From positions 186,001-250,000 of the forward strand of contig JAPZUD010000002.1 of assembly GCA_027533425.1 (NCBI GenBank): a DNA stretch of 64,000 bases. Reading direction: 5' to 3'. The position numbers were made by a program, and so were the translations under genes. The stretch is from Beijerinckiaceae bacterium. Its GTDB lineage: Bacteria; Pseudomonadota; Alphaproteobacteria; Rhizobiales; Beijerinckiaceae. A model generated the notes under the pieces. That model made no database searches and was not told the origin of the DNA. It was given only the letters and a program-made list of their open reading frames with translations. Positions 19,539 through 47,953 of this stretch are shown in pieces. Positions within the stretch are counted from its first letter, which is position 1, and every line of letters starts with the position of its first letter.

Positions 19539-20714
19539 TCAGACGCTCGCCAGCCGGGTGCCCAGTTCGCCCAGCCGTTCCGCGCCGACATTGGCGAAGG
19601 CGATACGGAGATGGGTTTCCTGCCCCGGGCCGAAATAGGGGCCGGGCAGAGCCAGCACGCCGGATTCCAGCGCCAGCTTGCGGGCGGCGTCCCGCGCGGG
19701 GAGGCCCGGGAAGGGATGGGCGGCGAAGGCGAAATAGGCGCCGAGGGAATCGAGCCGCCAGCCCGGCAAAGGCGCGAAGGCAGCGCGGCAGGCGGCCGCG
19801 CGGCGGACGAGATCGTCGCGCTGGCCATGCCGCCAGTGGCGCAGGCCCTCGATCGCCCAGGCGACAACACGCTGGGCCGGCCGGGCCGGGCAGATCTGCA
19901 TCGTATCCAGCACCTTGGCGATCTCGGCCATGGTTTCCGGCGCGGCCGCCATGGCGCCGAGCCGGTGCCCCGGCACGGCATAGGCCTTCGAGAATGAGTA
20001 AAGCTGGATCGCCACGTCGCCCCAGCCGGGATCGGCCAGCAGGTCATGCGGGCGGCCGCTGCCGGCGGGCAGGAAATCGCGATAGGTCTCGTCGAGGATC
20101 AGGGCGATCCCATGCTGCCGCGCCAGTTCCGCAAAGGCCGCAATCGTGGCCGGCGGGTAGATGGCGCCGGTCGGGTTGTTCGGCGTGACGAGCACGATCG
20201 CCCGGGTGGCGGGCGTGATCCGCGCCGCAGCCTCCGCCACATCCGGCACGAATCCCGCCTCGGGGCGGCAGGGCAGCGGCTGGGCGGCGATGCCGAGCAT
20301 GTCCAGTGCCATCTTGTGGTTGAAGTACCACGGCGTGGGCAGCATGACGGCCTCGCCGGCGCCGGCAATCGCCATCACGGCGACCATGAAGGCCTCGTTG
20401 CAGCCGGCGGTGATCGCCACCGAGTCCACCGGCAGCGAGGCACCATAGAGCGCGCCCGTTTCGGCGGCATAGGCCTCGCGCAGGGCGGCATCGCCGAGGA
20501 TCGGGCCATAGCGGGTGCATTCGGCATCGCCTGCCGCTTCGGCAAGGCGTTCCAGCATCGCGGCGGGCGGCGGTTCGCCCGGCACGGCCTGCGAGAGATC
20601 GATCATCGGGCCATGGCGGCCGTCATAGTCGCGGCGCCAGCCCTGCGCCTCCGGAATGGGCGGGGAATCGACCGCGAGCAGGCGCGGGTTGAGGCGGTAG
20701 GCAAGCTTTGTCAC
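19539..20714 (-). CDS. PLP-dependent aminotransferase, class I/II
   Basis: 391 aa from a GTG at 20714 with GAGG 7 bases upstream. Fold-type I aminotransferase: ITAGCNEAFMVAVMAIAG (around 100-117), LVTPNNPTGAIYPP, LILDETYRDF with the PLP-binding Asp, and the Schiff-base lysine in YSFSKAYAVPGHRLG. The C-terminal Arg that holds the substrate carboxylate is in HLRIAFANVG. It would move an amino group between an amino acid and a 2-oxo acid; the specific substrate is not predictable. Convergent with the dioxygenase gene; divergent from the MBL-fold gene. Confidence 0.88.
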   Translation of the reverse strand: MTKLAYRLNPRLLAVDSPPIPEAQGWRRDYDGRHGPMIDLSQAVPGEPPPAAMLERLAEAAGDAECTRYGPILGDAALREAYAAETGALYGASLPVDSVAITAGCNEAFMVAVMAIAGAGEAVMLPTPWYFNHKMALDMLGIAAQPLPCRPEAGFVPDVAEAAARITPATRAIVLVTPNNPTGAIYPPATIAAFAELARQHGIALILDETYRDFLPAGSGRPHDLLADPGWGDVAIQLYSFSKAYAVPGHRLGAMAAAPETMAEIAKVLDTMQICPARPAQRVVAWAIEGLRHWRHGQRDDLVRRAAACRAAFAPLPGWRLDSLGAYFAFAAHPFPGLPARDAARKLALESGVLALPGPYFGPGQETHLRIAFANVGAERLGELGTRLASV

Positions 20715-22665: not shown

Positions 22666-23682
22666 CTACTTCGCAAAGCGCGAGAAGGTCATGTCCGGAG
22701 AGGACATGTTGTGCCGCGAGGGCCAGAAGCGGCCGGCCCAGAATTCGTTCGCCTCCCCGCCCTTGTAGTCGAGCACATGCTCCTCGCCCCAGCGGGTCTT
22801 GCCGGCCTGACGGAAGGCGACGCGCGAGACATCGTTGTTGATGTCGGTCACATACATCGAGCGGAGGGCCGCGAAGGGCTTGTCCTTCGGCAGGTTGCCG
22901 GAGAGCCGGACCTCGAGGCTGATATGATCCTTGTCCAGCTTGTCGAGCTTCAGGCTGCCCTCGCCGCCATCGCGGAAGGGGAAATGGAAGGTCATGGTTT
23001 CCGGGTCGAAGCGGATTTCCTTCAGCGCCACGACCGGGCGGCCCTCCATCGTCACCGGCCCGATCATGAAGCTGGAGCCATAGGCGGTCCAGCCCATATG
23101 GGCCGGCGGCAGGGGCCGGGCCCGCCAGTAGCCATCAGGCGGATAGACAACAAGCATCTCCTCCATCCGCTGGCCGATACGCTGGTAGACCTGCACGAGA
23201 TGGAGACCGGTCTCGACCCGGTCCCCCACCTTCACCGGCACGTCGGCCGGACGCCAGAAGCTCGGATAGACCTGCCCGACAATCGAGATCCACGGCGTTT
23301 CGTAAAGCGTCACCTGCCGTGGCTTGCCGGGGTTGAAGACGGGATCACCGGACATGTCGCAATCGGTGAAATCCGGCAGGGCCAGATCCTCCTTCAGCGT
23401 GGCGATATAGGCCGGGTGGACGGCCTGCACGCGGAAGCTGCGGACCTCGGGATTGAGGAAGCGGATGTCGATATTGTCCTTCTCGGCGCAGACTTCCGGC
23501 TCGGAATGGTTCTCGACCTTCACAATCAGGCTCGGCGGCTTCTTGTTATGCGCGCCGAGGACGGTCTGGTCGGGGGTGGCGGAAGTCTGGGCCTGACTGA
23601 TTTCGGACGAGCACATGAAAACCCCCAGGGTCAGCAGCAGGGCCGGCAGCAGGCGCCCGGGTTCAGCCACGAAATGTCGCAT
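22666..23682 (-). CDS. Secreted protein of unknown function, downstream of fkbM
   Basis: 338 aa from ATG 23682 (an ATG two codons earlier is possible). Signal peptide about residues 1-32 (LLPALLLTLGVFMCSSEISQAQ cleaved after AQA; hydrophobic core LLPALLLTLGVFM). The mature part looks like beta-rich repeats: SLIVKVENHSEPEVCAEKD, VNPG-like turns, IGPVTMEGRPVVALKEIRFD, LKLDKLDKDHISLEVRLSGN. Two Cys (in EVCAEKD and DFTDCDMSG) could form a disulfide. I do not recognise the family. The start overlaps the fkbM 3' end by 20 bases, so it belongs to the opgH-fkbM operon and may act on the same periplasmic glycan; that is inference. Confidence 0.7.
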   Translation of the reverse strand: MRHFVAEPGRLLPALLLTLGVFMCSSEISQAQTSATPDQTVLGAHNKKPPSLIVKVENHSEPEVCAEKDNIDIRFLNPEVRSFRVQAVHPAYIATLKEDLALPDFTDCDMSGDPVFNPGKPRQVTLYETPWISIVGQVYPSFWRPADVPVKVGDRVETGLHLVQVYQRIGQRMEEMLVVYPPDGYWRARPLPPAHMGWTAYGSSFMIGPVTMEGRPVVALKEIRFDPETMTFHFPFRDGGEGSLKLDKLDKDHISLEVRLSGNLPKDKPFAALRSMYVTDINNDVSRVAFRQAGKTRWGEEHVLDYKGGEANEFWAGRFWPSRHNMSSPDMTFSRFAK

Positions 23683-24433
23683 AGACATCCCCCGAATTGG
23701 CCGCATGCGGCAAGGACAGGATATGGGCCGCCATGTCGCCGGCGGAAATGGGCGCGTCGAAATGAAGCTGCTGGCTCTCGCCGAGCGCGATATTGAACCG
23801 GTAGGGCCGGAGCGCGGCGAGCAGCGCGATGCATTTCCCGGCAATGTCACGCTGGATCGTGGTGAATTCGAAGGACAGGGCCCGGACCGGCTCGGTCAGT
23901 CCGGACAGGACATCGGCCTCGAAGCCCTCGACATCGATCTTGACGAAATCCGGCATGCCATGCTGCCTGATCAGGCGGTCGAGCGTCGTCACGGGCACCT
24001 CGATCGCCCGGTCCCAGACCTGGCCTTCCCAGCCCTCGGCGCCATCGGCGGCCTTCACGAAATCCGTCGAGGCGGTGGTCACAGTCGGGTTGGCGGAATT
24101 GACATGGAGGGTCAGCTGGCCGGGCGCGGGCCCGCAGGCCGCCTCGACCAGCGTGACGCCTCCATCCTGCCCATAGATCTCGCGGATCGCGGCCGCGCAA
24201 TCCGGCTGCGGTTCGAGGGCGACGACGCGGGCCCCGACGCGGCGGAACGAGCCGATCCGGTCACCGACATGGCTGCCGATATCGAAGGCGAGGCCGCCCG
24301 GCTTCACGAAGCGGGCATAGAGCGCATCCATTGCGGCGTCGCGCGGGGCATCGCCGTAATAGACCTCGAAGGAGCGGCGCAATCCGGGCCAGCGCGTGGC
24401 GAGGCCGGCAATCCGTTCGACGGGAAGGGTCAC
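23663..24433 (-). CDS. FkbM-family SAM-dependent methyltransferase
   Basis: 256 aa from a GTG at 24433 that overlaps the opgH stop by four bases (GTGA). Class I Rossmann methyltransferase: FDIGSHVGDRIGSFRRVGA (SAM loop, about 50-68), VVALEPQPDCAA with the acidic residue binding the ribose, and the FkbM signature FVKIDVEGFEADVLSGL (about 168-184) followed by SFEFTT. FkbM enzymes O-methylate sugars and natural products. Tight coupling to opgH suggests a glucan or lipid-linked acceptor, but this is inferred from position only. Confidence 0.87.
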   Translation of the reverse strand: MTLPVERIAGLATRWPGLRRSFEVYYGDAPRDAAMDALYARFVKPGGLAFDIGSHVGDRIGSFRRVGARVVALEPQPDCAAAIREIYGQDGGVTLVEAACGPAPGQLTLHVNSANPTVTTASTDFVKAADGAEGWEGQVWDRAIEVPVTTLDRLIRQHGMPDFVKIDVEGFEADVLSGLTEPVRALSFEFTTIQRDIAGKCIALLAALRPYRFNIALGESQQLHFDAPISAGDMAAHILSLPHAANSGDVYATFRG

Positions 24434-26220
24434 GCGGGGGTCTCCTGGCTCTGGGCCTTCAGGATGATCCCGGGCTTCTCGATTTCCTCGGGGATGGCGT
24501 AGAGGCCCTTGCGGGTCAGCGTCTCGCCGAGCTTCGGATCAGCACTCCAGACCGCAAAGGGAATGGCGACGAGGAAGCCGAAGGTCAGCGGCAGCGACCA
24601 GAGCGCGAATTCCACCGAGGTCACGGCCATGAGCCCGACCACGATCGCGCCGAACAGCGTCTGCGGCCAGAGGTTGGAGGCAGCGATATCCCACGGCACG
24701 CCATGCGCATCACGCGCCTGACCACCCCAGGTGACCGATTTGCCGATCAGCAGGCCGAGGATGAAGACCGTCGTCTTGAAGGTATCCGCCGCGCCGAGAA
24801 CCCAGGCGAAGAGGATCTCGGTCAGGCCGGCAAAGAGGAACTTGCCGGTGCCGCCATAGCGGGCCGTGCCGCCGGGCGTGAGCATGATGTCGATCAGCCC
24901 GGCGATTTTCGGCATCAGGTTCATCACCGTGAAGAGGATGTAGAGCGTCAGCGCCGAGGCGACGGGGAAGAGCGCGAGGCTCTCGCCATCGAAGGGCTTC
25001 AGCGCGGCCAGCGGCAGCATCAGCGTCCAGGCGGGAATGCCGAGGAACATCAGGATGGCCCAGATCAGCTGGAAGCGGCTGACCGGGTAGAGGGCCGGCA
25101 GGTCGAGCAGCTTGAAGTATTGCAGGTTGCCCTGGCACCAGCGGGTATTGCGCTTCATGAATTCGAGCAGGGTCGGCGGGTTTTCCTCCCAGGAACCGCC
25201 CTCTTCCGGCATGACGCGGACCTCGTAGCCGGCGCGGCGCATCAGCGTCGCCTCGACCTGGTCATGGCTCAGGATGTGCCCGCCGAAGGGCGGCTTGCCC
25301 GGCAGGACAGGCAGGTGGCATTCGTCGCGGAACGGGGCGATCCGGGCCAGCGCGTTATGCCCCCAGAACGGGCCGCATTCGCCCACCCACCAGGCCTGTC
25401 CCATCGTGTAGGAGCGCATGCCCTGGCGCATCCCGAACTGGAAGATGCGGGCAAAGGCCGATTTCGAGGGCATGCCGACGACGAGGCTCTGCAGGATGCC
25501 GAGTTTCGGGTTGGCCTGCATGATCCGGACATGGTGGAGGATGGTGCGCGCATCCATCAGGCTGTCGGCATCGAGCGGCAGCATCAGGTCGAAATCCGCG
25601 CCCCAGGTCTCGAGGAAATCGCGGACATTGCCGGCCTTGAAGCCGGTATTCTCCTGCCGGCGGCGATAAGTGATCGGGGCATCCGCACCCGCCTCTGCCT
25701 TCCAGCGTGCGACACCGGCCTCCTCCTCGGCCGCGACATCCTCGCGGTTGGTGTCGGAGAGGAGGAAATAGGCGAAGCGATCCGCGGCCGGGCTGGCATC
25801 CAGCTCGGCCTTGATCAGCTTCATCCGGTGCAGGGCCCGGGCGGGATCCTCGTTGCGGAGGGTCATGAAGATCGCGGTCTTCAGCGAGACCGGCATGTCC
25901 GGGTCAGGCAGGTCGGCGAAGGGCGCGACCTCGCGCATGGCATCGCGGCGGCCATGGAGCAGCCAGAGGCCGATCACGGCATTCCAGAAGCCGAGCACGG
26001 CCCAGGGCGTGCCGAAAACCATGCAGATGAAGAGCAGGATATCGATCACGCTCCAGCCGCCGGTGCCGAGGATCGAGCCCGCCCAGACGAGCAGCGCGAC
26101 ATAGAGCGCGACATTGAGGCCGCCGACAATGACGCGGCGATAGGTCAGCGCCTCGGCACTCTGGGTGCCGGTCGGCGTGAGGGGGATGGCGATGCGGGGC
26201 GCATTCGTCTCCGGGGGCAT
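24430..26220 (-). CDS. opgH: Osmoregulated periplasmic glucan glucosyltransferase
   Basis: 596 aa inner-membrane GT2 glycosyltransferase (MdoH/OpgH). Two helices at the N-terminus (about 28-48 and 56-80), cytoplasmic GT2 domain with LLSDTNRED, LPLDADSLMDARTI (DxD-type site), VGECGPFWGHNALARI and the product-binding motif NTRWCQGNLQ, then five to six C-terminal helices. E. coli OpgH is near 850 aa; this shorter form lacks much of its N-terminal cytoplasmic extension. It makes the linear beta-1,2-glucan backbone from UDP-glucose. The usual partner opgG is not in the window; instead fkbM and a secreted protein follow in the same operon. Confidence 0.92.
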   Translation of the reverse strand: MPPETNAPRIAIPLTPTGTQSAEALTYRRVIVGGLNVALYVALLVWAGSILGTGGWSVIDILLFICMVFGTPWAVLGFWNAVIGLWLLHGRRDAMREVAPFADLPDPDMPVSLKTAIFMTLRNEDPARALHRMKLIKAELDASPAADRFAYFLLSDTNREDVAAEEEAGVARWKAEAGADAPITYRRRQENTGFKAGNVRDFLETWGADFDLMLPLDADSLMDARTILHHVRIMQANPKLGILQSLVVGMPSKSAFARIFQFGMRQGMRSYTMGQAWWVGECGPFWGHNALARIAPFRDECHLPVLPGKPPFGGHILSHDQVEATLMRRAGYEVRVMPEEGGSWEENPPTLLEFMKRNTRWCQGNLQYFKLLDLPALYPVSRFQLIWAILMFLGIPAWTLMLPLAALKPFDGESLALFPVASALTLYILFTVMNLMPKIAGLIDIMLTPGGTARYGGTGKFLFAGLTEILFAWVLGAADTFKTTVFILGLLIGKSVTWGGQARDAHGVPWDIAASNLWPQTLFGAIVVGLMAVTSVEFALWSLPLTFGFLVAIPFAVWSADPKLGETLTRKGLYAIPEEIEKPGIILKAQSQETPA

Positions 26221-26361: not shown

Positions 26362-27339
26362 ATGCCCCAGCCATCTTCCTCCGCCCTCTTCTACACCGCG
26401 CCGATGACGGCCGAGCGCCGGGCCGTGGCGCTGCCGGCGCTCGGCCCGGGCGAGGCGCAGGTCCGGACGGAATTCACCGCCCTGTCCCGCGGGACGGAAC
26501 GGTTGGTTGCCTCCGGCCTCGTCCCCCCGGACGAGCATGCCCGCATGCGCTGCCCGCTGCAGGAGGGAGATTTTCCCTTCCCCGTGAAATACGGCTATTG
26601 CGCCGTCGGTGTGGTGGAAGATGGGCCGGCGGAATGGATCGGCAAGCGGGTCTTCGTCCTGCATCCGCATCAGGACCGCTTTGTCTGCTCCGTCGCGTGG
26701 CTGAATGCCGTGCCGGATTTCCTGCCCTCCCGCCGGGCGGCATTGGCCGCGAATATGGAAACCGCGCTGAACGCGATCTGGGATTCCGGCGTCTCGGCGG
26801 CGGACCGGGTGGTGGTGGTCGGCGGCGGGCTGGTCGGCCTGCTCGTGACCTTCCTTGCGGCGAACATGCCCGGCACGGACGTCACGCTGGTCGATCTCGA
26901 CCCGCTGCGGGCGGAGATTGCCGGCCATCTCGGTGCGCAGTTCGCGCTGCCGGACCATGCGCCGAAAGGCGCGGATATCGTGTTCCATACGAGCGCCAGC
27001 GCGGCTGGCCTTGCCACCGCGATCGGCGCGGCCGGGCCCGAGGCGCGGGTGATCGAGCTCTCGTGGTACGGGGCGAAGCCGGTCCAGGCGCCGCTGGGCG
27101 GCCTGTTCCATGCCGGGCGGGTGAGCCTTGTCTCGTCACAGGTCGGCACCGTCTCGCCGGGCCATGCGGCGCGGGGCTGGACCTATTCATCGCGCCTTCA
27201 GGCGGCCTTGCGCTTATTGGCCGATGACAGGCTGGATGCGTTGATCACCGAGACCCTCCCCTTCCCCGACCTGGCTCCGGCCATTCCCCGCCTGCTGGCG
27301 GCGGAGGCCCCGGGGCTTGCCACCTTGATCCGTTATTGA
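26362..27339 (+). CDS. Medium-chain dehydrogenase/reductase (zinc-less, BchC-like)
   Basis: 325 aa from ATG 26362. MDR-superfamily oxidoreductase: TEFTALSRGTERLVASGLVP (about 36-55), FPVKYGYCAVGVVEDGP, VFVLHPHQDRFVC, AANMETALNAIWDSGVS, and the NAD(P)-binding VVVVGGGLVGLL (about 152-163). The catalytic Cys/His and the four-Cys structural zinc site of alcohol dehydrogenases are absent; the closest pattern I recognise is BchC-like. It opens a four-gene run (MDR, PTPS-like, GT4, methyltransferase) with gaps of 10, 10 and -4 bases. The reaction is probably NAD(P)H-dependent reduction or oxidation of a pathway intermediate. Confidence 0.82.
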   Translation: MPQPSSSALFYTAPMTAERRAVALPALGPGEAQVRTEFTALSRGTERLVASGLVPPDEHARMRCPLQEGDFPFPVKYGYCAVGVVEDGPAEWIGKRVFVLHPHQDRFVCSVAWLNAVPDFLPSRRAALAANMETALNAIWDSGVSAADRVVVVGGGLVGLLVTFLAANMPGTDVTLVDLDPLRAEIAGHLGAQFALPDHAPKGADIVFHTSASAAGLATAIGAAGPEARVIELSWYGAKPVQAPLGGLFHAGRVSLVSSQVGTVSPGHAARGWTYSSRLQAALRLLADDRLDALITETLPFPDLAPAIPRLLAAEAPGLATLIRY

Positions 27340-27349
27340 GGAAAGAACG

Positions 27350-27751
27350 ATGTTTGCCGTTGAAGTCCGCGATCGCATCATGATCGGCCATTCGCTGCCG
27401 GACCCGTTTTTCGGGCCAGCCCAGAACATGCATGGCGCGACCTTCGTGGTGGATGTCGCCTTTTTCCGCGAGACGATGACGAAGCAGAATGTCGTGGTCG
27501 ATATCGGCGCGGCGCTCGATACGCTGGCGGCCGTGCTCAAGCCGCTGAAATACCAGAATCTCGACACGCTGCCGCAGTTCAAGGGCGTGCTGACCACGAC
27601 CGAATTCCTTGCCTATCACATTTTCGAGGAAATGGCGAAGGCCGCGAAATCCGGCGCCCTGGGCGAGGATGGCAAGGGCCTGACGAAAATCCGCGTCACC
27701 CTGCACGAAACCGATCTCGCCCGCGCCTGGTTCGAGGGTCCACTGACCTGA
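27350..27751 (+). CDS. 6-pyruvoyl-tetrahydropterin synthase/QueD-like protein, non-canonical active site
   Basis: 133 aa, matching the T-fold of PTPS/QueD. Kept: H14 (IGHSL), H28 (MHGATF), E85 (TTTEFLAYH, pterin-anchoring position) and E120 (VTLHETDLARA). Changed: the third zinc ligand, normally the second His of HGH, is A30; the catalytic Cys a few residues before HGH is missing (GPAQNM); and the catalytic Asp-His pair reads D72-T73. So substrate binding looks preserved while the classical lyase chemistry does not. It is embedded between an MDR oxidoreductase and a glycosyltransferase; a queuosine role is unlikely because no queC, queE or queF is present. Confidence 0.8.
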   Translation: MFAVEVRDRIMIGHSLPDPFFGPAQNMHGATFVVDVAFFRETMTKQNVVVDIGAALDTLAAVLKPLKYQNLDTLPQFKGVLTTTEFLAYHIFEEMAKAAKSGALGEDGKGLTKIRVTLHETDLARAWFEGPLT

Positions 27752-27761
27752 TGGCCGGCCA

Positions 27762-28826
27762 ATGAGTGACATCGCCTTCCTGATCCCCGGCGACCTGAAC
27801 CTGCCCACGGGCGGCTATGGCTATGACCGTGCCGTGATCCGGCTCCTGCCCGATCACGGTGTGCAGGCGATGCATGTCGCCCTGCCCGGTTCCTTCCCCA
27901 TGGCCACCGAGGCGGACCTCGCCGATTGCGCAGCCATCGTGCAGGGTCTGCCGCCCGGTTGCCCGCTGCTGATCGACGGGCTCGCCTATGGCGCGATGCC
28001 GGCCGGGCTGATCCGGGCCTTCAACCGGCCGATCATTGCCCTGTGCCATCATCCCTTGGCGCTGGAGAACGGCATCTCGGCCGCGCGCGCGCAGGCGTTG
28101 CATGCCTCCGAGGCGACGGCGCTCAGCCTCGCCGATCATGTCATCGTGACCTCGCCGCTGACGGCGAAAATCCTCGAAGGCGATTTCGGTGTACCGGCGG
28201 GCAAGATCACGGTCGCCATTCCCGGCACGGCCCGGAAGCCGCGTGCGACCGGATCGGGCGAGGCGACGCTGAACCTGCTCGCGGTGGGCTCGATCGTCCC
28301 CCGCAAGGGCTATGCCGTGCTGGTCGAGGCGCTGTCCGGGCTGAAGAAGCGGGCCTGGCACCTGCGCATTGTCGGGGCCGCGCATGGACTCGACACCGTC
28401 AACGCGCTCCAGCAGCAGATCAGCCAGGCAGGCCTGGCCGACCGGATCCAGCTGCTTGGCGCGGTCCGCGAGCGCGATCTCGATACCTTCTACGAGAAGG
28501 CGGATCTCTTTGTGATGTCCTCGCTGTTCGAGGGCTATGGCATGGTCCTCGGCGAGGCGATGCAGCGCGGACTGCCGATTGTCACCACCACCGGCGGCGC
28601 GGCCAGCGATACCGTGCCCGAGGGCGCCGGCCTCAAGGTCCCGCCCGGGGATGCCGGAGCCCTGCAGGCCGCGCTCGAACAGGCTATGGCCGACCCTGCC
28701 CTGCGGGCGCGACTGGCGGACGAGGCCTATCGCGCCGGACAATCGCTCCCAGACTGGGCCGATACGGCCCGCATCATTGCCGGGGCGCTCGCCCCGTTCC
28801 TCCCGTCCAGAAAGGTTTCCGCATGA
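27762..28826 (+). CDS. GT4-family glycosyltransferase of the pterin-like cluster
   Basis: 354 aa. GT-B retaining glycosyltransferase: short N-terminal domain beginning IAFLIPGDLNLPTGGYGYDR, then NLLAVGSIVPRKGYAVLVEA (about 168-187) and the EX7E motif in SLFEGYGMVLGEAMQRGLP. The GGYGYDR loop near residue 17 is the acceptor/donor glycine-rich turn. Its stop overlaps the methyltransferase start (ATGA). Because the preceding genes are an MDR and a PTPS-like protein, the acceptor may be a small pterin-type molecule rather than a polysaccharide. Acceptor identity is inference. Confidence 0.85.
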   Translation: MSDIAFLIPGDLNLPTGGYGYDRAVIRLLPDHGVQAMHVALPGSFPMATEADLADCAAIVQGLPPGCPLLIDGLAYGAMPAGLIRAFNRPIIALCHHPLALENGISAARAQALHASEATALSLADHVIVTSPLTAKILEGDFGVPAGKITVAIPGTARKPRATGSGEATLNLLAVGSIVPRKGYAVLVEALSGLKKRAWHLRIVGAAHGLDTVNALQQQISQAGLADRIQLLGAVRERDLDTFYEKADLFVMSSLFEGYGMVLGEAMQRGLPIVTTTGGAASDTVPEGAGLKVPPGDAGALQAALEQAMADPALRARLADEAYRAGQSLPDWADTARIIAGALAPFLPSRKVSA

Positions 28827-29680
28827 GCGGCTTCTCCGCTGACTGGCTTGCCCTGCGCGAGCCGGCCGACCATCGTTCCCGCAATGCCGAACTTGCCGGC
28901 CGGGTCGGAACCCGGTTTGCCGGGCATGATGTGATCCGCATTGTCGATCTCGGCTCCGGCACGGGCTCGAACCTGCGCGCGACCGCGCCGCTGCTGGGCC
29001 CCCAGCAGGAATGGACGCTGGTGGATTACGATGCCGGGCTGCTCGAGGCGGCCGCAAAAGTGCTGTCCGGCTGGGCCGACGAGGCCCGCGCGATCGGCGA
29101 CGATCTCGTCCTCGTCAAGGGCGAGACGACGATCGGCGTGAAGTTCCGCGTGGTCGACCTCAACCGCGATCTCGACTCAGTGCTGGCCGGCAAGCCGGAT
29201 CTGGTGACGGCCTCGGCGCTGTTCGACCTGATCTCGGAAGCGTGGATGAAGCGCTTCGCCTCGGCCCTCAAGGCGGCGGGTTCGGCCTTCTACACGGTGC
29301 TGACCTATAACGGACAGGACCAGTTCATTCCCGAGCATCCGTTCGATTTCGGCGTGATCCGCGCCTTCGGCATGCATCAGCGCCGCGACAAGGGCTTCGG
29401 TCCTGCCGCCGGGCCGGAGGCTGCAGCCACGCTGGTTGCGGCGCTGAAGCGCGAGGGTTACTCGGTCGATACAGGCGAATCGCCGTGGATCCTCAAGCCT
29501 TCCGATGCAGAGCTGATCCGCGCGCTGCTGACGGGGATCGAAAAGGCTGTCACCGAAACCGGCTTCATCTCCGATAACGGCCTCGCGGACTGGCACACCT
29601 ATCGCGATGCGATGTGCGACCAGAAGGGCAGCCGGATGATGACCGGCCATACCGATATCTTCGCCACGCTGCCGGCCTGA
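28823..29680 (+). CDS. Class I SAM-dependent methyltransferase
   Basis: 285 aa from ATG 28823, overlapping the previous stop by four bases. Motif I is VDLGSGTGSNLRATAPLLG (about 42-60), followed by WTLVDYDAGLLEAAA (motif II with the acidic ribose-binding residue), and a catalytic-domain stretch VTASALFDLISEAWMKRF. A C-terminal region of about 100 residues (from QFIPEHPFDFGVIRAF) is characteristic of a Hyphomicrobiales group I recognise only from its gene neighbourhood. Last gene of the MDR-PTPS-GT4-methyltransferase operon; substrate unknown. Confidence 0.82.
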   Translation: MSGFSADWLALREPADHRSRNAELAGRVGTRFAGHDVIRIVDLGSGTGSNLRATAPLLGPQQEWTLVDYDAGLLEAAAKVLSGWADEARAIGDDLVLVKGETTIGVKFRVVDLNRDLDSVLAGKPDLVTASALFDLISEAWMKRFASALKAAGSAFYTVLTYNGQDQFIPEHPFDFGVIRAFGMHQRRDKGFGPAAGPEAAATLVAALKREGYSVDTGESPWILKPSDAELIRALLTGIEKAVTETGFISDNGLADWHTYRDAMCDQKGSRMMTGHTDIFATLPA

Positions 29681-29692
29681 GCGCCCCCGCGC

Positions 29693-30244
29693 TCAGGGCA
29701 ACATGCGCTTCAGGACGCCATCCTTCAGCACGAGGCGATGGAACAGGGCGGCGCCGACATGCATCGCGATGAAACCCGCCATCGCGATTGCGGCATAGCC
29801 GTGATACTTCAGGATCGTCTCGCCGAGCACCGTGTCCTTGCCCAGCAGGGATGGCAGATTGAAGCCGCCGAGCAGGCCCGTCGCGCCATAGGCCGAAACG
29901 CCGAGCCATCCGAGGACCGGGACGAGGATCATCAGCAGATAGAGCAGACCATGGGTCGACTCCGCCGCGATGACCTGCACCCGCGCCAACCCGGGCTCCG
30001 GCGCCGGCGCTCCGTTGCGGATCCGCAGCGCGATCCGCAGCACGATCAGCAGCAGCACGATGAAGCCGAACGTCTTGTGCGCGGTGTAGAGCTGGTTGGT
30101 CACGGCATCGAAATTGGTCGCCGCGCCGCGCTGCACCATGTAGATCCCGACCGGGATCAGGGTCAGCAGCATGAGAGCGATGACCCAATGGAGCAGTTTC
30201 TGCCCGCCGGAATAGCTGATGGGCCGCGAGGATGCCTTACTCAT
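29693..30244 (-). CDS. Cytochrome b561-type membrane protein
   Basis: 183 aa, four membrane helices. Heme-ligand histidines sit in LLHWVIALMLLTLIPVGIY (about 18-36), YTAHKTFGFIVLLL, STHGLLYLLMILVPVLGW and YHGYAAIAMAGFIAMHVGAA. This is the bacterial CybB-like di-heme quinol/superoxide electron-transfer family. The start overlaps the RibD-C-like gene's stop by eight bases (ATGAGTAA), so the two are translated from one transcript, an unusual pairing of a membrane electron carrier with a soluble pyrimidine reductase. Confidence 0.9.
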   Translation of the reverse strand: MSKASSRPISYSGGQKLLHWVIALMLLTLIPVGIYMVQRGAATNFDAVTNQLYTAHKTFGFIVLLLIVLRIALRIRNGAPAPEPGLARVQVIAAESTHGLLYLLMILVPVLGWLGVSAYGATGLLGGFNLPSLLGKDTVLGETILKYHGYAAIAMAGFIAMHVGAALFHRLVLKDGVLKRMLP

Positions 30245-30959
30245 GCTGCTCTCCGGAATGTGATGCGCGTGTCAGGTCACAATCGAATAGCACATCGCCA
30301 GCACCGAGCGAAACCACCTCGACATGGGGGCGGATCGCCTGGCTGATCCGGTCGATCGGCGCGAGATCGAGCCCGGCCTGCCCCGAGCCAAGGATGATGG
30401 CGGAGACCATGAGATGAAGGCGATCGACAATCCCGGCATCGATGGCGCGCGAGATGATACCTGCCCCGCCCTCGATGAGCACCGTGTCGAAGCCGAGATC
30501 GGCGAGGGCGCGCGCCAGATCCGGCATGCTGAAATGACCGCGCGCATCGGTCGCAAGGCGGATGATCTCGACCTCGCGCGGCAGGGGTTCGCCCCGGGCG
30601 CCGGCATCGCGGAAGACGATCCGCCGGACCTTGTCGTGCCCGGCGAGACATTTGGCCGCAGCCGGCAGCTTTCCGCGGGCATCGATGACAATCCGGGCCG
30701 GATTCGGCCCTTCGCAGCGGCGCACATTGAGCTGCGGGTCATCCGCCAGGACGGTCCCGATGCCCACGACAACTGCATCGACATGGGCGCGGATGCGGTG
30801 CAGGTGGTCAAGCGAGGGAGCCGCCCCTATGTACCGGCTGTCTCCCGTCCGGGTGGCGATCCTGCCATCCAGCGATTGGCCCAATTGGGCCACGATGAAG
30901 GGCCGTTCGGCAGAAATACGCCGGAAAGCCTGGAAGAGGGTCGCGGTTTCGGGGGGCAT
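30237..30959 (-). CDS. RibD C-terminal-domain-type reductase (stand-alone)
   Basis: 240 aa from ATG 30959, preceded by AAGGA. Only the dihydrofolate-reductase-like RibD_C domain is present: AQLGQSLDGRIATRTGDSRY (about 24-43), DAVVVGIGTVLADDPQLNVR (about 61-80), RIVIDARGKLP, and the C-terminal LIEGGAGIISRAIDAGIVDRL. The zinc deaminase half is missing. Stand-alone proteins of this type reduce diaminoribosylamino-pyrimidinones (the archaeal/fungal order) or other pyrimidine/pterin substrates. A complete RibD is encoded 17 kb away, so this one probably has a separate task. Divergent from ribA. Confidence 0.88.
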   Translation of the reverse strand: MPPETATLFQAFRRISAERPFIVAQLGQSLDGRIATRTGDSRYIGAAPSLDHLHRIRAHVDAVVVGIGTVLADDPQLNVRRCEGPNPARIVIDARGKLPAAAKCLAGHDKVRRIVFRDAGARGEPLPREVEIIRLATDARGHFSMPDLARALADLGFDTVLIEGGAGIISRAIDAGIVDRLHLMVSAIILGSGQAGLDLAPIDRISQAIRPHVEVVSLGAGDVLFDCDLTRASHSGEQHE

Positions 30960-31137
30960 CGGAGTCCTTGCAGGGCGACGGCATGAGCGGGTTTCACGCC
31001 TGAACGGGGCGCGATGAAATCAGACATCAGCCGTTCATCTTGCGAGCCCCATACATACATGGACCTTAACGATACGGTGTCCATCCGGCGGAATAACCCA
31101 GCCGAAATGACCGTAAACATGGACGAAAGAGGCGTAA

Positions 31138-32259
31138 ATGGGTGACGTCAGTGAAATTCTCGGCCTTTTCGACACCGCCGGCGAGCGGGCTGTCGATCGT
31201 GCCCTCGCGGAGTACCGCGCGGGCCGGCCGGTTGCGATCGTCGAGGGTGGCGAAGCGCTGCTCGCGCTGAATGTGGAATCGCTCGAAGCGGCCGTGGCCG
31301 TGGCGCTCGACCGGCTGGCTCCCGGTCGTCCGCGCCTTGTCCTGCCGGCAGCGCGCCTGCGTCGCCTCGGCCTCGAGCGCACCCAGCCCGGTGTCGTCTC
31401 GTTCCCGGTTCCGAATGCGGAACGGGCGGAAATGCTGGCACTCAAGATCGATGGCCGCATCGATGCGCCCGTGGCGCCGGTGGTCGCGCTGGACGAGGCC
31501 GCCCTCGAGCTGGCGCGCCTCGCTCTTGTCACGCCCGCCGTCTATGCGGTTCCGGTGGCCATCGAGGCGGTGAATGGCGGTGTTGCCCGCGTGACTGCCG
31601 CCGAGCTGCGGGATTACCGCGCCAGCCAGGTCCGGGCGACGAAGATCGTCGGCCGGGCGCCGGTGCCGCTCGAATTCGCGGCCGAAACCGAATTCGTGGT
31701 GTTCCGTGGCGGCGAAGGCCTGCGCGACCAGGTGGCGATCATTGTCGGCAAGCCCGACCTGTCGAAGCCGGTGGCCATCCGCATGCATTCGGCCTGCCTG
31801 ACGGGCGACCTGTTCGGCTCGCTGAAATGCGATTGCGGCGACCAGCTGCGCGGCACCGTCCAGAAAATGGCGGAAAGCGATGGCGGGATCCTGCTCTATC
31901 TCGACCAGGAAGGCCGCGGGAACGGCATTGCCAACAAGATGCGGGCCTACAAGCTGCAGAGCCAGGGCTGGGATACCTATGACGCGGACGAGGTTCTCGG
32001 CTTCGGCCTCGACCAGCGCCGCTTCGATTTCGCGGCAGTCATGCTGAAGCAGCTCGGCGTCACCTCGGTCCGCGTGATGACCAACAACCCGGAAAAGATC
32101 GGCGCGCTCAAGGCCGCCGGCCTCGAGGTTGTGGCGGATAACCGCGCCTATGGCCGGCCGACGGCGGAAAACATCCGCTATCTCGCCTCGAAGCGCGACC
32201 GGGCGGGCCATTTCATCGATTTCGATGCGATGGTCGCGCATGCCCCGGTCAACGGCTAG
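31138..32259 (+). CDS. ribA: GTP cyclohydrolase II with degenerate N-terminal domain
   Basis: 373 aa from ATG 31138. The C-terminal half is RibA: the zinc site reads HSACLTGDLFGSLKCDCGDQ (about 220-239) with all three cysteines, then ILLYLDQEGRGNGIANKMRA with the catalytic residues and RVMTNNPEKIGALKAAGLEV. It converts GTP to the diamino-ribosylamino-pyrimidinone phosphate. The N-terminal 190 residues resemble a worn-out DHBP-synthase-like domain without the acidic metal motifs, a form seen in other Hyphomicrobiales. The gene is divergent from the RibD-C-like gene, sharing a 178-bp upstream region, and is the only GTP cyclohydrolase in the window. Confidence 0.93.
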   Translation: MGDVSEILGLFDTAGERAVDRALAEYRAGRPVAIVEGGEALLALNVESLEAAVAVALDRLAPGRPRLVLPAARLRRLGLERTQPGVVSFPVPNAERAEMLALKIDGRIDAPVAPVVALDEAALELARLALVTPAVYAVPVAIEAVNGGVARVTAAELRDYRASQVRATKIVGRAPVPLEFAAETEFVVFRGGEGLRDQVAIIVGKPDLSKPVAIRMHSACLTGDLFGSLKCDCGDQLRGTVQKMAESDGGILLYLDQEGRGNGIANKMRAYKLQSQGWDTYDADEVLGFGLDQRRFDFAAVMLKQLGVTSVRVMTNNPEKIGALKAAGLEVVADNRAYGRPTAENIRYLASKRDRAGHFIDFDAMVAHAPVNG

Positions 32260-32292: not shown

Positions 32293-34680
32293 ATGCGCCC
32301 GATATCGCGCCGTCTTCCGCAGGAGAACATTGCTTGGCCGGATCTTGCGCCTGCCGGTCATGATCCGGAATGGCGGGCCGACGGCAGGCAATGGCTCGCC
32401 GCCCTGGTCATCTTTCTCGGCTGTGCCTTGTTTCTCGCCTGGCCCTGGCTGTCCGGCGCGGTCACCTTGCCCTGGGACGGGAAGGCCCATTTCCAGGCAC
32501 AGGCAGCCTTTCTTGCCCGCTCGATCCATGCCGGCGAGAGCCCGTTCTGGGCGCCGTATGTTTTTTCAGGCCATCCGCAGGTCGCCGATCCGCAATCGCT
32601 GATCTTCAATCCCGGCTTCCTGATGCTCGCGATGCTGACTCCGGCGCCGAGTTTCGCCATGGTCGATGGCGTGGCCTTCGGCTCGCTGGTCTTCGGCGCG
32701 CTGGCCATTCTCGGTTTCGCGCGGGACCGGCGCTGGCACCCGGCGGCGGCCGTCGTGGCGGCCCTCGCTTTCGCCTTCGGCGGCGCAGCCGGCTGGCGGA
32801 TCCAGCATGTCGGGCAGGTGCTCAGCCTTGCCTATTTCCCCTGGGCCTTCTGGATGCTGGACCGCGCCTTCCGGCTGTCCTCGATGCGGTTCGGCGCCTT
32901 GGCGGGCCTTTTTGCCGGGCTGATGGTGCTGGGGCCGGACCAGGTGGCCTTTCTCGGCCTCGTCTGCCTCGCAGGATTCACGCTTGCGCATCTCGTGGGT
33001 GGTCCGGGCCGCCTGCCGCGCCTTCGGGCCAGCCTGAGGCCGCTGGCGGCGGGAGCGCTCGCAGGCGGAGCCGTCATCGCGGTGCCGATCCTGATGGTGC
33101 TGAGCTTCGCCGACGGGTCGAACCGCGCGCAGATCTCGCTTGCCGAGGCGGAGATCGGCTCGCTTCATCCGACCAACCTGCTGACCTTCGTTGTCGCGAA
33201 CCTGTTCGGCACAATCGGCCCCGGCCCGGATTTCTGGGGGGCGCCCAGCGTGCACTGGCCCTACATCGTCAATTCCAATGTCGCGCGGAACATGGCCAAT
33301 GCCTATACGGGCCTGCTGCCGCTGGCCGGCATTCTCGCCTGGCTGGCATGCCCGGCAGCCTACCGCTCCCGGATGGTTGCCCTGCCGATCCTGTTCGGCC
33401 TGATGATCGCCTATGCGCTGGGCCGCTACACGCCGGTCTTCCCGGCGGCCTATCATCTGCTGCCCGGGGTCGATCTCTTCCGCCGCCCGGCCGATTCGCT
33501 GTTCCTTGTCGGCGCGGTCGGATCCTTCATGGCGGGGTTCGGCCTCGACCGGGTCCTGCGGCGCGGGCCGGGCACTTGGCCGGGCACAGCCGCGGCCCTC
33601 TGGCTGGCCACAGGCCTGCTCGCGCTGGCGGGCGGGCTCGCCATGGCCCTCTGGCTCGGCAGGCTCGGGCAGGCCGTGCCGGAACTTTTCGCCACGTCCG
33701 GCTGGCTGCTGGTGGCGGGTGTTGTCCTCATCGTGGCGCAGCGGCAGGCGCAGGCGCGGCCAGTTCTGGTGGCAGCCCTGATGGCCTTTGCCGTGACGGC
33801 CGATCTTCGCTGGAATCTCCGCCCGAACGATTCAACCGGGCTTGACCCCGTCCACTACAGCGAGATGCGCGCCGGCAGCGACAACGAGACCCTCGCCTGG
33901 CTCAAGGCGCATATCGTGCAGGACGGGCAGCGCCGGGACCGGGTGGAACTGGCTGGCCTCGGCTTCGGATGGCCCAATGCCGGGCTTGTCCACGGGCTCG
34001 AGAACGTGCTGGGCTATAACCCGCTGCGCGTTGCGGCCTACAGCGCCGCAACCGGCGCGCAGGATCATGTGGCCAATCCGGACCAGCGCCGGTTCTCTCC
34101 GCTGATGCCGGGCTACCGGTCGGCACTGAGCAACCTGCTCGGCCTGCGCTACATCGTGACGGGCGTGCCGATCGAGCGCATCGACCCCGCGCTGGCGGGT
34201 GATCCGCCCATCCCGGTGGCGCGGACGAAGGACGGCTATATCTACGAGAATCCCGAGGTCCTGCCCCGCGTGCTGGTGGTGCCGGACGCGCAGCCGCTTG
34301 ATCAGGACCGCCTGATCCGGACGGGCGAATGGCCCTCCACCGATTTCCGGAACGTGGTCTATGTCGAGCCCTCCGCGCTGCCCCTGCCCCAAGGCGGCAC
34401 GGGCGGGACGGCGCGCATCACGCGCTACGGCCATGCAACGATCGATATCGCCGTCGAGGCCCCAAGCGGCGGCGTGCTGCTGCTCAATGATGTCTGGCAC
34501 CCGTGGTGGTTTGCCGAGGTGGATGGCGTTCCTGCCCGAATTCTGCGCGCCAATGGGATTTTCCGGGCCGTTGTGCTGCCGCGCGGCGCCCGCCAGGTGA
34601 CCTTCCGGTTCGAGCCGGTGCGCGGGTTGCTCCGCCAGGCACTGCAGAATCGCGGGCTGATCGCCAGCCCGACGCCGTGA
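32293..34680 (+). CDS. YfhO-like polytopic membrane protein
   Basis: 795 aa. One leading helix (about 36-56), many further hydrophobic helices up to about residue 500, then a soluble C-terminal domain (about 500-770) containing TARITRYGHATIDIAVEAPS and GVLLLNDVWHPWWFAEVDG, which is typical of the periplasmic tail in YfhO-type, GT-C-like proteins. The first loop has LPWDGKAHFQAQAAF, with an acidic residue where GT-C enzymes place catalytic Asp. Such proteins often glycosylate teichoic acid or other envelope polymers; here the target is unknown. It lies 33 bases after ribA but likely has a separate role. Confidence 0.75.
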   Translation: MRPISRRLPQENIAWPDLAPAGHDPEWRADGRQWLAALVIFLGCALFLAWPWLSGAVTLPWDGKAHFQAQAAFLARSIHAGESPFWAPYVFSGHPQVADPQSLIFNPGFLMLAMLTPAPSFAMVDGVAFGSLVFGALAILGFARDRRWHPAAAVVAALAFAFGGAAGWRIQHVGQVLSLAYFPWAFWMLDRAFRLSSMRFGALAGLFAGLMVLGPDQVAFLGLVCLAGFTLAHLVGGPGRLPRLRASLRPLAAGALAGGAVIAVPILMVLSFADGSNRAQISLAEAEIGSLHPTNLLTFVVANLFGTIGPGPDFWGAPSVHWPYIVNSNVARNMANAYTGLLPLAGILAWLACPAAYRSRMVALPILFGLMIAYALGRYTPVFPAAYHLLPGVDLFRRPADSLFLVGAVGSFMAGFGLDRVLRRGPGTWPGTAAALWLATGLLALAGGLAMALWLGRLGQAVPELFATSGWLLVAGVVLIVAQRQAQARPVLVAALMAFAVTADLRWNLRPNDSTGLDPVHYSEMRAGSDNETLAWLKAHIVQDGQRRDRVELAGLGFGWPNAGLVHGLENVLGYNPLRVAAYSAATGAQDHVANPDQRRFSPLMPGYRSALSNLLGLRYIVTGVPIERIDPALAGDPPIPVARTKDGYIYENPEVLPRVLVVPDAQPLDQDRLIRTGEWPSTDFRNVVYVEPSALPLPQGGTGGTARITRYGHATIDIAVEAPSGGVLLLNDVWHPWWFAEVDGVPARILRANGIFRAVVLPRGARQVTFRFEPVRGLLRQALQNRGLIASPTP

Positions 34681-45391: not shown

Positions 45392-45871
45392 TCAGGCGCT
45401 CCGCTTCAGCGCATAGAGCGCGAGGGCGGCACGGGCGGCATCGCCCCCCTTGTCTCCCCGGGATGGATTGGCGCGGGCCTCGGCCTGCGCCAGGTTCTCG
45501 ACGGTCAGGATGCCATTGCCGAAAGCGAGGCGATGGCGCGTGGCCAAGGCCGTCAGTTCACGCGCGCTCTCGTTCGAGACGATCTCGTAATGCGTGGTCT
45601 CGCCGCGGATCACCACGCCGAGCGCGACGAAGCCATCGGCCTTGCGGCGGCCGGATTCCGCCTGCTGGCGGAGGATCTCGATCGCGACCGGGATCTCCAG
45701 CGCGCCCGGCACGGTCACGACCTCGCTGGTCGCGCCGGATGCCGCGAAAGCGGCCATGGCGCCGGCAATCAGCTGGTCGTTGAGACTGTCATAGAACCGC
45801 CCCTCGACGATGATGAAATGCGCGCCTGTCGCATCCACCAGCGGAAGGGCCTCGCGTGTGGCCTCGGCCAT
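45392..45871 (-). CDS. ribH: 6,7-dimethyl-8-ribityllumazine synthase
   Basis: 159 aa, preceded by AGGAG. Condenses the ribitylamino-pyrimidine with DHBP, the second-to-last step to riboflavin. Signatures: [20 protein letters not shown] (about 19-38), [16 protein letters not shown] (about 51-66), and [18 protein letters not shown] (about 85-102) with the catalytic His. An N-terminal WxxxY-type substrate region is shortened. It lies downstream of the ribDE frame, from which it is separated by 318 bases containing a palindromic repeat. Confidence 0.96.
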
Positions 45872-46189: not shown

Positions 46190-46822
46190 TCAGCCCTGTT
46201 TCAGCGTCTCGGCGAGGCGGGCGGCATAGCGGGCCATCATGTCCACCTCGAGATGGACCTTGTCGCCGGCCTGCCTTGCGCCCCAGGTCGTGACCTTGAG
46301 CGTGTGCGGGATCAGCAGGACGGTGAAGCGATCCTCCTCAACGCTGTTCACGGTGAGGGAGACACCGTCCAGCGTGACCGAGCCCTTGGCCGCGATGAAG
46401 CGGTGCAGCGGCGACGGGACGCGCAAGGTGAAGCGGGCCGTCGCGCCCCAGTTCGCCTCGTCCGGCGTCACATCCTCCCGCGTGACGATCTCGGCCAGCG
46501 CATCGACATGGCCGGTCACGAGATGGCCGCCCAGCTCGTCGCCGAGGCGCATCGCCCGTTCGAGATTGAGCCTCGTGCCGACCTGCCATTGCCCGGCGGC
46601 GGTAAGACGGAGCGTTTCGGCCGCGGTTTCCACCTCGAACCAGCGCCGGCCTTCCGACTCGCCCTTCGCCACCACAGTCAGGCAGATGCCGGAGCAGGCG
46701 ATCGAGGCGCCGATCGCGATCGTGGCCGGATCATAGGTCGAGGCGATGCGGAAGCGGCGCAGCTTGCCCTCGCCTTCGGCCCTGACGATCTCGCCGATAT
46801 CGGTGACAATCCCTGTAAACAT
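46190..46822 (-). CDS. ribE: Riboflavin synthase (RibE), possible internal start within the ribDE frame
   Basis: 210 aa if started at ATG 46822, which has AAGGA (about 9 bases upstream) and a neighbouring ATG three bases earlier. The two lumazine-binding repeats are complete: GIVTDIGEIVRAEGEGKLRR (first barrel), SIACSGICLTVV, LGDELGGHLVTGHVDALAEI (second barrel start), GSVTLDGVSLTVNSVEEDRF and the C-terminal KVHLEVDMMARYAARL trimerisation helix. It converts two 6,7-dimethyl-8-ribityllumazine molecules to riboflavin and a pyrimidine. Whether it is made alone, as part of the fusion, or both is not decided by sequence. Confidence 0.7.
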   Translation of the reverse strand: MFTGIVTDIGEIVRAEGEGKLRRFRIASTYDPATIAIGASIACSGICLTVVAKGESEGRRWFEVETAAETLRLTAAGQWQVGTRLNLERAMRLGDELGGHLVTGHVDALAEIVTREDVTPDEANWGATARFTLRVPSPLHRFIAAKGSVTLDGVSLTVNSVEEDRFTVLLIPHTLKVTTWGARQAGDKVHLEVDMMARYAARLAETLKQG

Positions 46823-47953
46823 CATCTGTCCTTCATGGTGGGCGCGCTGGCCGGCATAGACCCGCGCGTGATCGCGGTCGAGCGCGCGCTCCTCGCGGAG
46901 ATCGGCATAACGGAGCCATCCGGCAAGACCCGGACCGATGGCCGGAAGGCCATTGCCCGCCGGGTCGGGCCCCGTGAGCCGGACAAACTCATCGCAGAAG
47001 CCCGCTGCGGCGAAGGCATCGGCGAGGGTCGGGCCGGCCTCGACCATGGCGCGGGTGATGCCCCGGGCCGCGAGCGCCCCGAGCAGGGCGGCAAGGTCGA
47101 TCCGGCCGCGATCCGCCGGCATGCCGAGCAGCTCGACGCCCGGGCGGTCACCGAGCCGGGCGCGCAAGGCATCAGGATCAAGCGTGGCGATCAGCACCGG
47201 CACGCGGGCGGCATCGACGAGGATCCGCCGGTCAGGCATGATGCGGCCGCGGCTGTCGAGGATGACGCGGAGCGGCGAAAAGCCGGCCATGCCGGGGAGG
47301 CGCACATCGAGCATCGGATCATCGGCCAGCACGGTCCCGATGCCGGTGATGATCGCGTCGCAATCGGCGCGGAGACGATGGACGAAGGCGCGCGCCCTCT
47401 CGCCCGTGATGGCGATGGGGCGGCGATCCGGGGTGGCGGCGAAGCCATCCGCCGTCTCGGCCAGCTTGAGGCGCAGGAAGGGCCGGTTCTTCTGCACGCG
47501 AAGGACATGGCCGGCATTGAGCGCAGCAGCCGCGGCCTCAAGCACGCCCTCGGTGACCGCGAGGCCAGCCTCTTTGAGGCGCGAGGTGCCCTCGTCAGCC
47601 GCGAAGGGTGAGGGATCGCGCGCCGCGATGACAACGCGGCCTATGCCGTGCGAGAGGATCAGATCGGTGCAGGCCGGGCCGAAATAACGCGTCGAGCGGC
47701 GCGAACAGGGTTCGAGCGTGACATAGAGCGTGGCGCCGCGCGCCGCTTCACCTGCCTGCCGGAGCGCGAGATCCTCGGCATGGGGGCGGCCGCTGGGCGC
47801 CGTGACGCCGCGCCCGAGCATGACGGGCGGTTCGCGCGTCTCATCGACGACAAGGGCGGCAACCGCCGGGTTGGGCGCTGTGGTGCCGAGGCCGCGCCGG
47901 GCAAGGGCAAGCGCAGCGCGCATGAAGGCCTCGTCGCGTGACGAGGCCGACAT
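46190..47953 (-). CDS. ribD: RibD-RibE fusion: deaminase/reductase joined to riboflavin synthase
   Basis: 587-aa single open frame. Residues 1-150 are the deaminase (APNPAVAALV, HAE at 58-60), 150-375 the reductase (RLKLAETADGFAATPDRRP; CDAIITGIGTVLADDPMLD; AMVEAGPTLADAFAAAG), and from residue 378 riboflavin synthase begins (MFTGIVTDIGEIV). I found no stop between the halves on reading the DNA across the junction (46820-46840). The deaminase zinc loop is unusual: C83 and C95 are 11 residues apart (CSRRSTRYFGPAC) where RibD normally has C-x8-C with HGRTPPC. The start overlaps the nrdR stop by one base. If translated through, one protein performs three riboflavin steps; internal initiation of RibE is the alternative. 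Confidence 0.88.
   Translation of the reverse strand: MSASSRDEAFMRAALALARRGLGTTAPNPAVAALVVDETREPPVMLGRGVTAPSGRPHAEDLALRQAGEAARGATLYVTLEPCSRRSTRYFGPACTDLILSHGIGRVVIAARDPSPFAADEGTSRLKEAGLAVTEGVLEAAAAALNAGHVLRVQKNRPFLRLKLAETADGFAATPDRRPIAITGERARAFVHRLRADCDAIITGIGTVLADDPMLDVRLPGMAGFSPLRVILDSRGRIMPDRRILVDAARVPVLIATLDPDALRARLGDRPGVELLGMPADRGRIDLAALLGALAARGITRAMVEAGPTLADAFAAAGFCDEFVRLTGPDPAGNGLPAIGPGLAGWLRYADLREERALDRDHARVYAGQRAHHEGQMMFTGIVTDIGEIVRAEGEGKLRRFRIASTYDPATIAIGASIACSGICLTVVAKGESEGRRWFEVETAAETLRLTAAGQWQVGTRLNLERAMRLGDELGGHLVTGHVDALAEIVTREDVTPDEANWGATARFTLRVPSPLHRFIAAKGSVTLDGVSLTVNSVEEDRFTVLLIPHTLKVTTWGARQAGDKVHLEVDMMARYAARLAETLKQG

Follow-up and report, generated by a model that had tools for sequence, protein, structure and literature searches.

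A recurrent gene cluster around a SCO6650-type PTPS-fold protein, and its possible link to an undeaminated riboflavin precursor

What might a bacterium make with genes that resemble those of riboflavin and pterin biosynthesis, joined to a glycosyltransferase and a methyltransferase? The question is raised by a stretch of 64,000 nucleotides from a Beijerinckiaceae bacterium (contig JAPZUD010000002.1, positions 186,001 to 250,000; hereafter the window, meaning this whole stretch). On it, genes for an MDR-superfamily oxidoreductase, a PTPS-like protein (P0002), a GT4 glycosyltransferase and an S-adenosylmethionine (SAM)-dependent methyltransferase form a four-gene core, next to genes for a cytochrome b561-type protein, a stand-alone RibD_C-type reductase (P0006) and a GTP cyclohydrolase II (GCHII; P0007). 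The answer that I favour, and hold to be reasonably probable, is that the cluster serves the biosynthesis of a small molecule from a riboflavin precursor that has escaped deamination. I found no description of the gene set or its product in the literature searched, a search that had subscription papers largely outside its reach; a set present in Alphaproteobacteria, other Pseudomonadota and Actinomycetota points to a molecule without a description in that literature. The cluster also leads one to expect a RibD-type reductase that works without prior deamination, and gives genomic context and concrete candidate substrates for the Streptomyces coelicolor protein SCO6650.

Recurrence of the gene set

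Among pattern matches in a species collection, 401 relatives of P0002 were confirmed, and the best 80 make up the close set used here; Rhabdaerophilum sp. SD176 is among the best matches (98%). Of 385 genomes sampled from the class, 45 have the family, and of 398 sampled from the phylum, 27. A second set of 70 diverse loci was taken from 40 of these 45 class genomes, 18 of the 27 phylum genomes and 12 of 20 matched plasmid records (the other 8 were not opened), and it is these plasmid records that provide the evidence for Actinomycetota. With loci cut by contig ends included, 58 of the 80 close loci have the four core genes in the same order on one strand, as do 33 of 40 loci from across the class and 7 of 12 from plasmids; for the close loci of at least 16 kb the figure is 45 of 53. 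Beyond Alphaproteobacteria, related sets exist in other Pseudomonadota and Actinomycetota. The ground for taking the gene order as more than accidental is its recurrence in divergent genomes, not a formal chance model. The original prediction had read these genes as one unit and looked to their co-occurrence in related genomes; the co-occurrence is there, and the grouping is well supported.

Around the diverse PTPS-like genes the most frequent partners are MDR (67 of 70 loci), GT4 (63), the methyltransferase (59) and RibD_C (53), followed by CDP-alcohol phosphatidyltransferase and GCHII (25 each), MdoH (18), b561 (16), FkbM and YceI (12 each), flippase-like and creatininase proteins (11 each) and sulfatase-like proteins (9). 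The 53 RibD_C genes lie mostly downstream on the opposite strand (39), otherwise upstream (11) or downstream (3) on the same strand. Of the core four, the PTPS gene shows the highest conservation in 50 of 50 loci, which had been chosen by PTPS similarity; in a wider set it comes first in 39 of 55 loci and the MDR gene in 16.

Some loci hold only part of the set. By the search used, the actinomycetotal sets are partial: RibD_C is missing from L087 (Streptomyces fungicidicus) and GCHII from L089, and in the unannotated record L098 only MDR, PTPS-like and GT4 genes were detected. Elsewhere, L157 has a PTPS-like gene with neither GT4 nor methyltransferase. Two Streptomyces plasmids (L090 and L091) carry the PTPS-like gene and no cluster; there it lies near a MEKHLA-domain protein, cupins and a metallo-beta-lactamase-fold hydrolase, a second and different context for the family. 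In L095, L096 and L204 no GT4 gene directly follows the PTPS gene, and PfkB/ribokinase, inositol-monophosphatase or MtnA-like sugar enzymes are nearby.

The PTPS-like protein and the stand-alone reductase

P0002 is the only PTPS match in its genome, and its active site departs from that of known PTPS enzymes in a uniform way. In an alignment of 133 sequences (132 loci and the window, compared with E. coli QueD), catalytic Cys27 and the third zinc ligand His33 are Ala in all 133; zinc ligands His16 and His31 and also Glu120 (QueD Glu110) are kept in all 133, and 18 positions are identical throughout. The equivalent of Glu120 anchors the 2-amino-4-oxo ring of a pterin. I read the altered active site as a conserved state and not as decay. 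With Ala in place of the catalytic Cys and of the third zinc ligand throughout, P0002 is unlikely to perform the known PTPS or QueD reaction, which tells against a PTPS of known type at this locus, and family genes annotated as 6-carboxytetrahydropterin synthase are probably not that enzyme. Its QueD score of 31.3 bits falls short of the cut-off of 89.25, and the PTPS subfamily motifs taken from PMC5041015, among them the PTPS-II motif CxxxxxHGH of the tetrahydrobiopterin-glucoside pathway, do not fit the family.

The best solved sequence match of P0002 is SCO6650 (PDB 3d7j; E 1.8e-36), true PTPS 1b66 reaching only 5.5e-5, and a predicted model (predicted local distance difference test, pLDDT, 86.7) likewise matches 3d7j first and PTPS/QueD after it. 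P0002 and SCO6650 are 52% identical and have the Ala/HGA signature in common. SCO6650 is reportedly without zinc and without PTPS activity, and I know of no function assigned to it. The S. fungicidicus locus L087 holds a close homologue (119 of 130 residues identical) beside MDR, GT4, methyltransferase, creatininase, GCHII and CDP-alcohol transferase genes; it differs from the window in that no RibD_C was found and in that its GCHII has Met at the position of E. coli Tyr105, where the window has Tyr. S. coelicolor SCO6655 (a paralogue) is said to make the formylated intermediate and to stop at the formyl compound, and the Met of L087 presumably matches that enzyme. The original prediction named no earlier description of such a set. 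The family itself extends beyond this group and has been described in part, SCO6650 having been solved in 2008; it is the set as a whole for which no description was found.

The reductase carries the best evidence for where the pathway would leave riboflavin biosynthesis. P0006 has no deaminase domain by Pfam and has Gln where RibD has Lys152. This Lys of RibD and RibG is thought to favour the deaminated pyrimidine; Asn is described there in archaea and Thr in fungi, and the change T35K turns yeast RIB7 towards the deaminated substrate with an about threefold preference (PMC3631187). The site could be read in 63 of 65 cluster reductases (two rows are gapped); 45 of them have Gln there, 17 have His, one has Leu, and none has Lys. 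A comparison of copies within 15 genomes gave the same division, with Gln or His in 15 of 15 stand-alone copies and Lys in all 12 readable RibD-type copies (14 plus the window's own, three of them unreadable). For this comparison 34 RibD_C places were matched and 30 became loci; four rows were dropped, three with an unreadable site (L207, L213 and L220) and one distant paralogue (L236), and L215 was classed as RibD by its best match, no deaminase motif being seen in the frame taken. P0006 resembles the RIB7-type reductases of archaea and fungi in standing alone, in having no deaminase and in having a residue other than Lys at the selecting site. It differs from them in that its family has Gln or His, in scoring 103.6 of the 186.45 bits required by the archaeal NCBIfam equivalog TIGR01508, and in a product apparently not destined for riboflavin. 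A branch point before deamination is supported by this signature, and so is the earlier proposal that GCHII and the reductase would together yield a diamino-ribityl-pyrimidine; the support comes from residues (Gln or His for Lys), not from an assay.

Is the cluster then surplus to riboflavin synthesis? As the original prediction noted, a riboflavin set lies elsewhere in the window: deaminase, RibD_C and lumazine-binding domains are found in one frame of 587 amino acids (46190-47953, minus strand) and RibH at 45392-45871 (minus strand). The former looks like a RibD-RibE fusion with two lumazine-binding stretches. The reductase, surplus according to the original prediction, is set apart by its residue signature; GCHII is not a spare copy. 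P0007 keeps the zinc ligands Cys54, Cys65 and Cys67 as well as Tyr105, while the only other GTP_cyclohydro2 domain found in the genome (L085 1486-2781) is fused to RibB, is of RibBX type and lacks the zinc cysteines; RibBX proteins are described as inactive for the GCHII step (PMC10012899). With the second copy RibBX-like and P0007 the only one found intact, the idea of a spare GCHII was dropped; P0007 very probably also feeds riboflavin.

A different arrangement is found in G161, a genome of 1.6 Mb that is 96% complete. Its cluster consists of creatininase, MDR, PTPS-like, GT4, methyltransferase, reductase and GCHII genes, all seven open, and a search of the genome found no RibH, no lumazine-binding riboflavin synthase (RibE) domain and no RibD_C besides that of the cluster. 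RibH, RibE and a second RibD_C are retained in G259 and G337, whose clusters have the same gene order. If the absence of ribD, ribE and ribH is real, the GCHII and reductase of G161 would serve the cluster alone.

Proposed route and alternatives

In the route that I propose, GCHII would open GTP to 2,5-diamino-6-ribosylamino-4(3H)-pyrimidinone 5'-phosphate, aided in some relatives, it seems, by a formamidase of creatininase type, and the stand-alone reductase would convert this, with no prior deamination, to the ribityl phosphate. The invariant Glu of the PTPS-fold protein may hold the 2-amino-4-oxo ring, and the MDR enzyme may oxidise or reduce the polyol chain; together the two proteins would most likely close a second ring, giving a pterin, or reshape the chain. 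Glycosylation by GT4 and methylation by the methyltransferase would follow. I infer every one of these reactions, above all those after the reductase, together with their order, the choice between a pyrimidine and a pterin product, the sugar, the methylated site and the ring system. A glycosylated and methylated end product is likely. Like the proposed product, vicine of faba bean (VC1) and the pterin glycosides of cyanobacteria have a ring of riboflavin- or pterin-pathway origin that carries a sugar; they come from unrelated organisms.

The formamidase has a precedent in BrbF, a creatininase-family protein proven to act on the GCHII intermediate in Sinorhizobium and Brucella (PMC9478397). Creatininase genes are present in 11 of the 70 diverse loci, 10 of which also hold RibD_C and 7 GCHII. 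BrbF differs in serving riboflavin, as described in that source, and the window's cluster has no creatininase gene, the genome holding two elsewhere. The idea that creatininase tracks a Tyr-to-Met change in GCHII was rejected, for among the copies compared only L087 has Met.

Several observations weigh against the proposed route. RibD_C is near the core in just 26 of 80 close loci (22 of the 53 of at least 16 kb), and GCHII in just 25 of the 70 diverse loci, of which, by the search used, 7 have no GT4, 11 no methyltransferase and 17 no RibD_C. The family is patchy, as its count within the class indicates, and among the genomes listed for the family to which the window belongs, 8 have no PTPS-like gene. 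That P0007 very probably serves riboflavin as well counts on the same side. The Lys rule is based on structures and one yeast mutant, and Gln and His are unlike both the Asn of archaea and the Thr of fungi. In G161, 96% complete, one gap could hide all three missing genes, ribD, ribE and ribH often being adjacent. As for the formamidase, the distant BrbF homologue Oant_3869 is described as failing to complement (PMC9478397), and four creatininase-bearing alphaproteobacterial clusters (L134, L146, L152 and L154) keep the normal GCHII Tyr, so that a formamidase is not obviously needed there.

Could the locus simply be an ordinary riboflavin neighbourhood, with GCHII and RibD_C as rib genes beside unrelated cell-envelope genes? 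That P0007 is the only intact GCHII of the genome speaks for this; however, a full riboflavin operon lies elsewhere in the window, the core is accompanied in 53 of 70 divergent loci by RibD_C, whose selecting residue is not that of RibD, and G161 keeps the set with no detected RibD, RibE or RibH, all of which makes this explanation quite improbable. I give still less credence to a queuosine/7-deazapurine or tetrahydrobiopterin-glycoside pathway with a working PTPS. Its appeal lies in the annotation of relatives as 6-carboxytetrahydropterin synthase, in the presence in the genome of FolE, the maker of the PTPS substrate, and in huimycin from Kutzneria albida, a 7-deazapurine that bears a methyl group and a sugar and whose synthesis involves a PTPS-family enzyme (PMC7439116). 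Like the window's cluster, the huimycin cluster combines a heterocycle derived from GTP and a PTPS-family protein with a methyltransferase and a glycosyltransferase, but it uses GTP cyclohydrolase I and 7-deazapurine enzymes, and the seven genes named for it (PMC7439116) include no GCHII, RibD_C or MDR. The invariant Ala residues of the PTPS-like family and the missed QueD cut-off argue against such a pathway, as does the absence of annotated QueC, QueE and sepiapterin reductase from the shown stretches of 11 annotated plasmid loci. Both the queuosine and the biopterin readings were set aside on the active-site residues and the annotated neighbours. One unassigned short-chain dehydrogenase/reductase lies about 7 kb from the cluster in L093.

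A special form of the favoured explanation has the product lipid-linked. Where a CDP-alcohol transferase and a flippase-like protein are present, the ribityl-phosphate compound would be attached to a phospholipid, given a sugar and carried to the other side of the membrane; in the lineage of the window, MdoH would take the corresponding role. I regard this form as rather unlikely. CDP-alcohol transferase genes are found in 25 of 70 diverse loci, including seven of seven (L187-L193) from the phylum outside the class, and flippase-like genes in 11; 24 of the 25 transferases have the strict catalytic motif. MdoH and CDP-alcohol transferase occur together in only one of 70 loci (Fisher p 0.0016) and in none of 57 alphaproteobacterial loci (p 0.0025), neither value being corrected for kinship, a point that counts against this form. 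So does the lack of both genes in 28 of the 70 loci. When the window's genome was searched with a Rhizobium CDP-alcohol transferase, nothing was found, a weak negative since it had no positive control. The best solved matches of the CDP-alcohol transferase profile are choline/ethanolamine, serine and glycerol-phosphate transferases and AF2299; together with the MDR and GT4 matches given below, they fit enzymes for a ribityl phosphate and, in some lineages, a lipid, a fit that does not fix the substrates. Somewhat more doubtful again is a new, membrane-anchored class of pteridine in the full sense: a ribityl-pterin or ribityl-pyrimidine that is attached to a phospholipid and bears both a sugar and a methyl group. 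A cluster spanning phyla would make it from the undeaminated precursor, with the PTPS fold turned to a metal-free condensation or ring closure, possibly together with a b561-type membrane redox protein.

Layout and neighbouring genes

All seven frames from MDR to GCHII are open at the coordinates given below. The tight packing claimed for the four-gene unit (26362-29680) is borne out by the frames, with gaps of 10, 10 and -4 bases, and so is the presence of b561, reductase and GCHII genes beside it; the last two are divergent with 178 bases between them.

Genes of the cluster and its recurrent neighbours, in window positions
Feature	Position	Strand	Remarks
MDR-superfamily oxidoreductase	26362-27339	+	zinc-binding alcohol dehydrogenase by relatives' annotation; weak BchC and polyol/alcohol-dehydrogenase matches
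PTPS-fold protein P0002, SCO6650 type	27350-27751	+	Ala replaces catalytic Cys; HGA replaces HGH
GT4 glycosyltransferase	27762-28826	+	PDB-closest by family profile: Tll1590, D-inositol-3-phosphate glycosyltransferase
Class I SAM-dependent methyltransferase	28823-29680	+	family of its own; predicted model pLDDT 95.1
Cytochrome b561-type membrane protein	29693-30244	-	8-base overlap with reductase gene
Stand-alone RibD_C-type reductase P0006	30237-30959	-	Gln at RibD Lys152/RibG Lys151 position
GTP cyclohydrolase II P0007, long PRK08815 type	31138-32259	+	genome's only copy with zinc cysteines
MdoH-type membrane glucosyltransferase	~24430-26220	-	start unsettled (open frame extends upstream); recurrent neighbour in window's lineage
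FkbM-type methyltransferase	23663-24433	-	recurrent neighbour in window's lineage

Five of the seven proteins score above the curated Pfam cut-offs: PTPS (73 bits against a cut-off of 22.4), GT4 (110.8), b561 (96.8), RibD_C (120.1) and GTP_cyclohydro2 (169.1). The MDR protein (24.5) and the methyltransferase (26.7) fall below theirs, and their assignments are based on family conservation. In a profile search the best solved matches of the MDR protein are polyol and alcohol dehydrogenases, mostly across the nucleotide-binding half, and those of GT4 are Tll1590 and inositol-phosphate-type glycosyltransferases (E limit 1e-25); structural comparison of the methyltransferase model gave no substrate hint. 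Rfam at the gathering threshold had no match between window positions 20000 and 50000.

MdoH lies beside the unit in 63 and FkbM in 57 of the 80 close loci, two neighbours absent from the original prediction. The YceI-like gene that recurs near the cluster (for example L141 6844-7455) shares its locus with b561 in L141 and L144. Next to GCHII in the window (32293-34680) is a gene for a protein of 795 amino acids, with tblastn matches in 46 of 150 loci.

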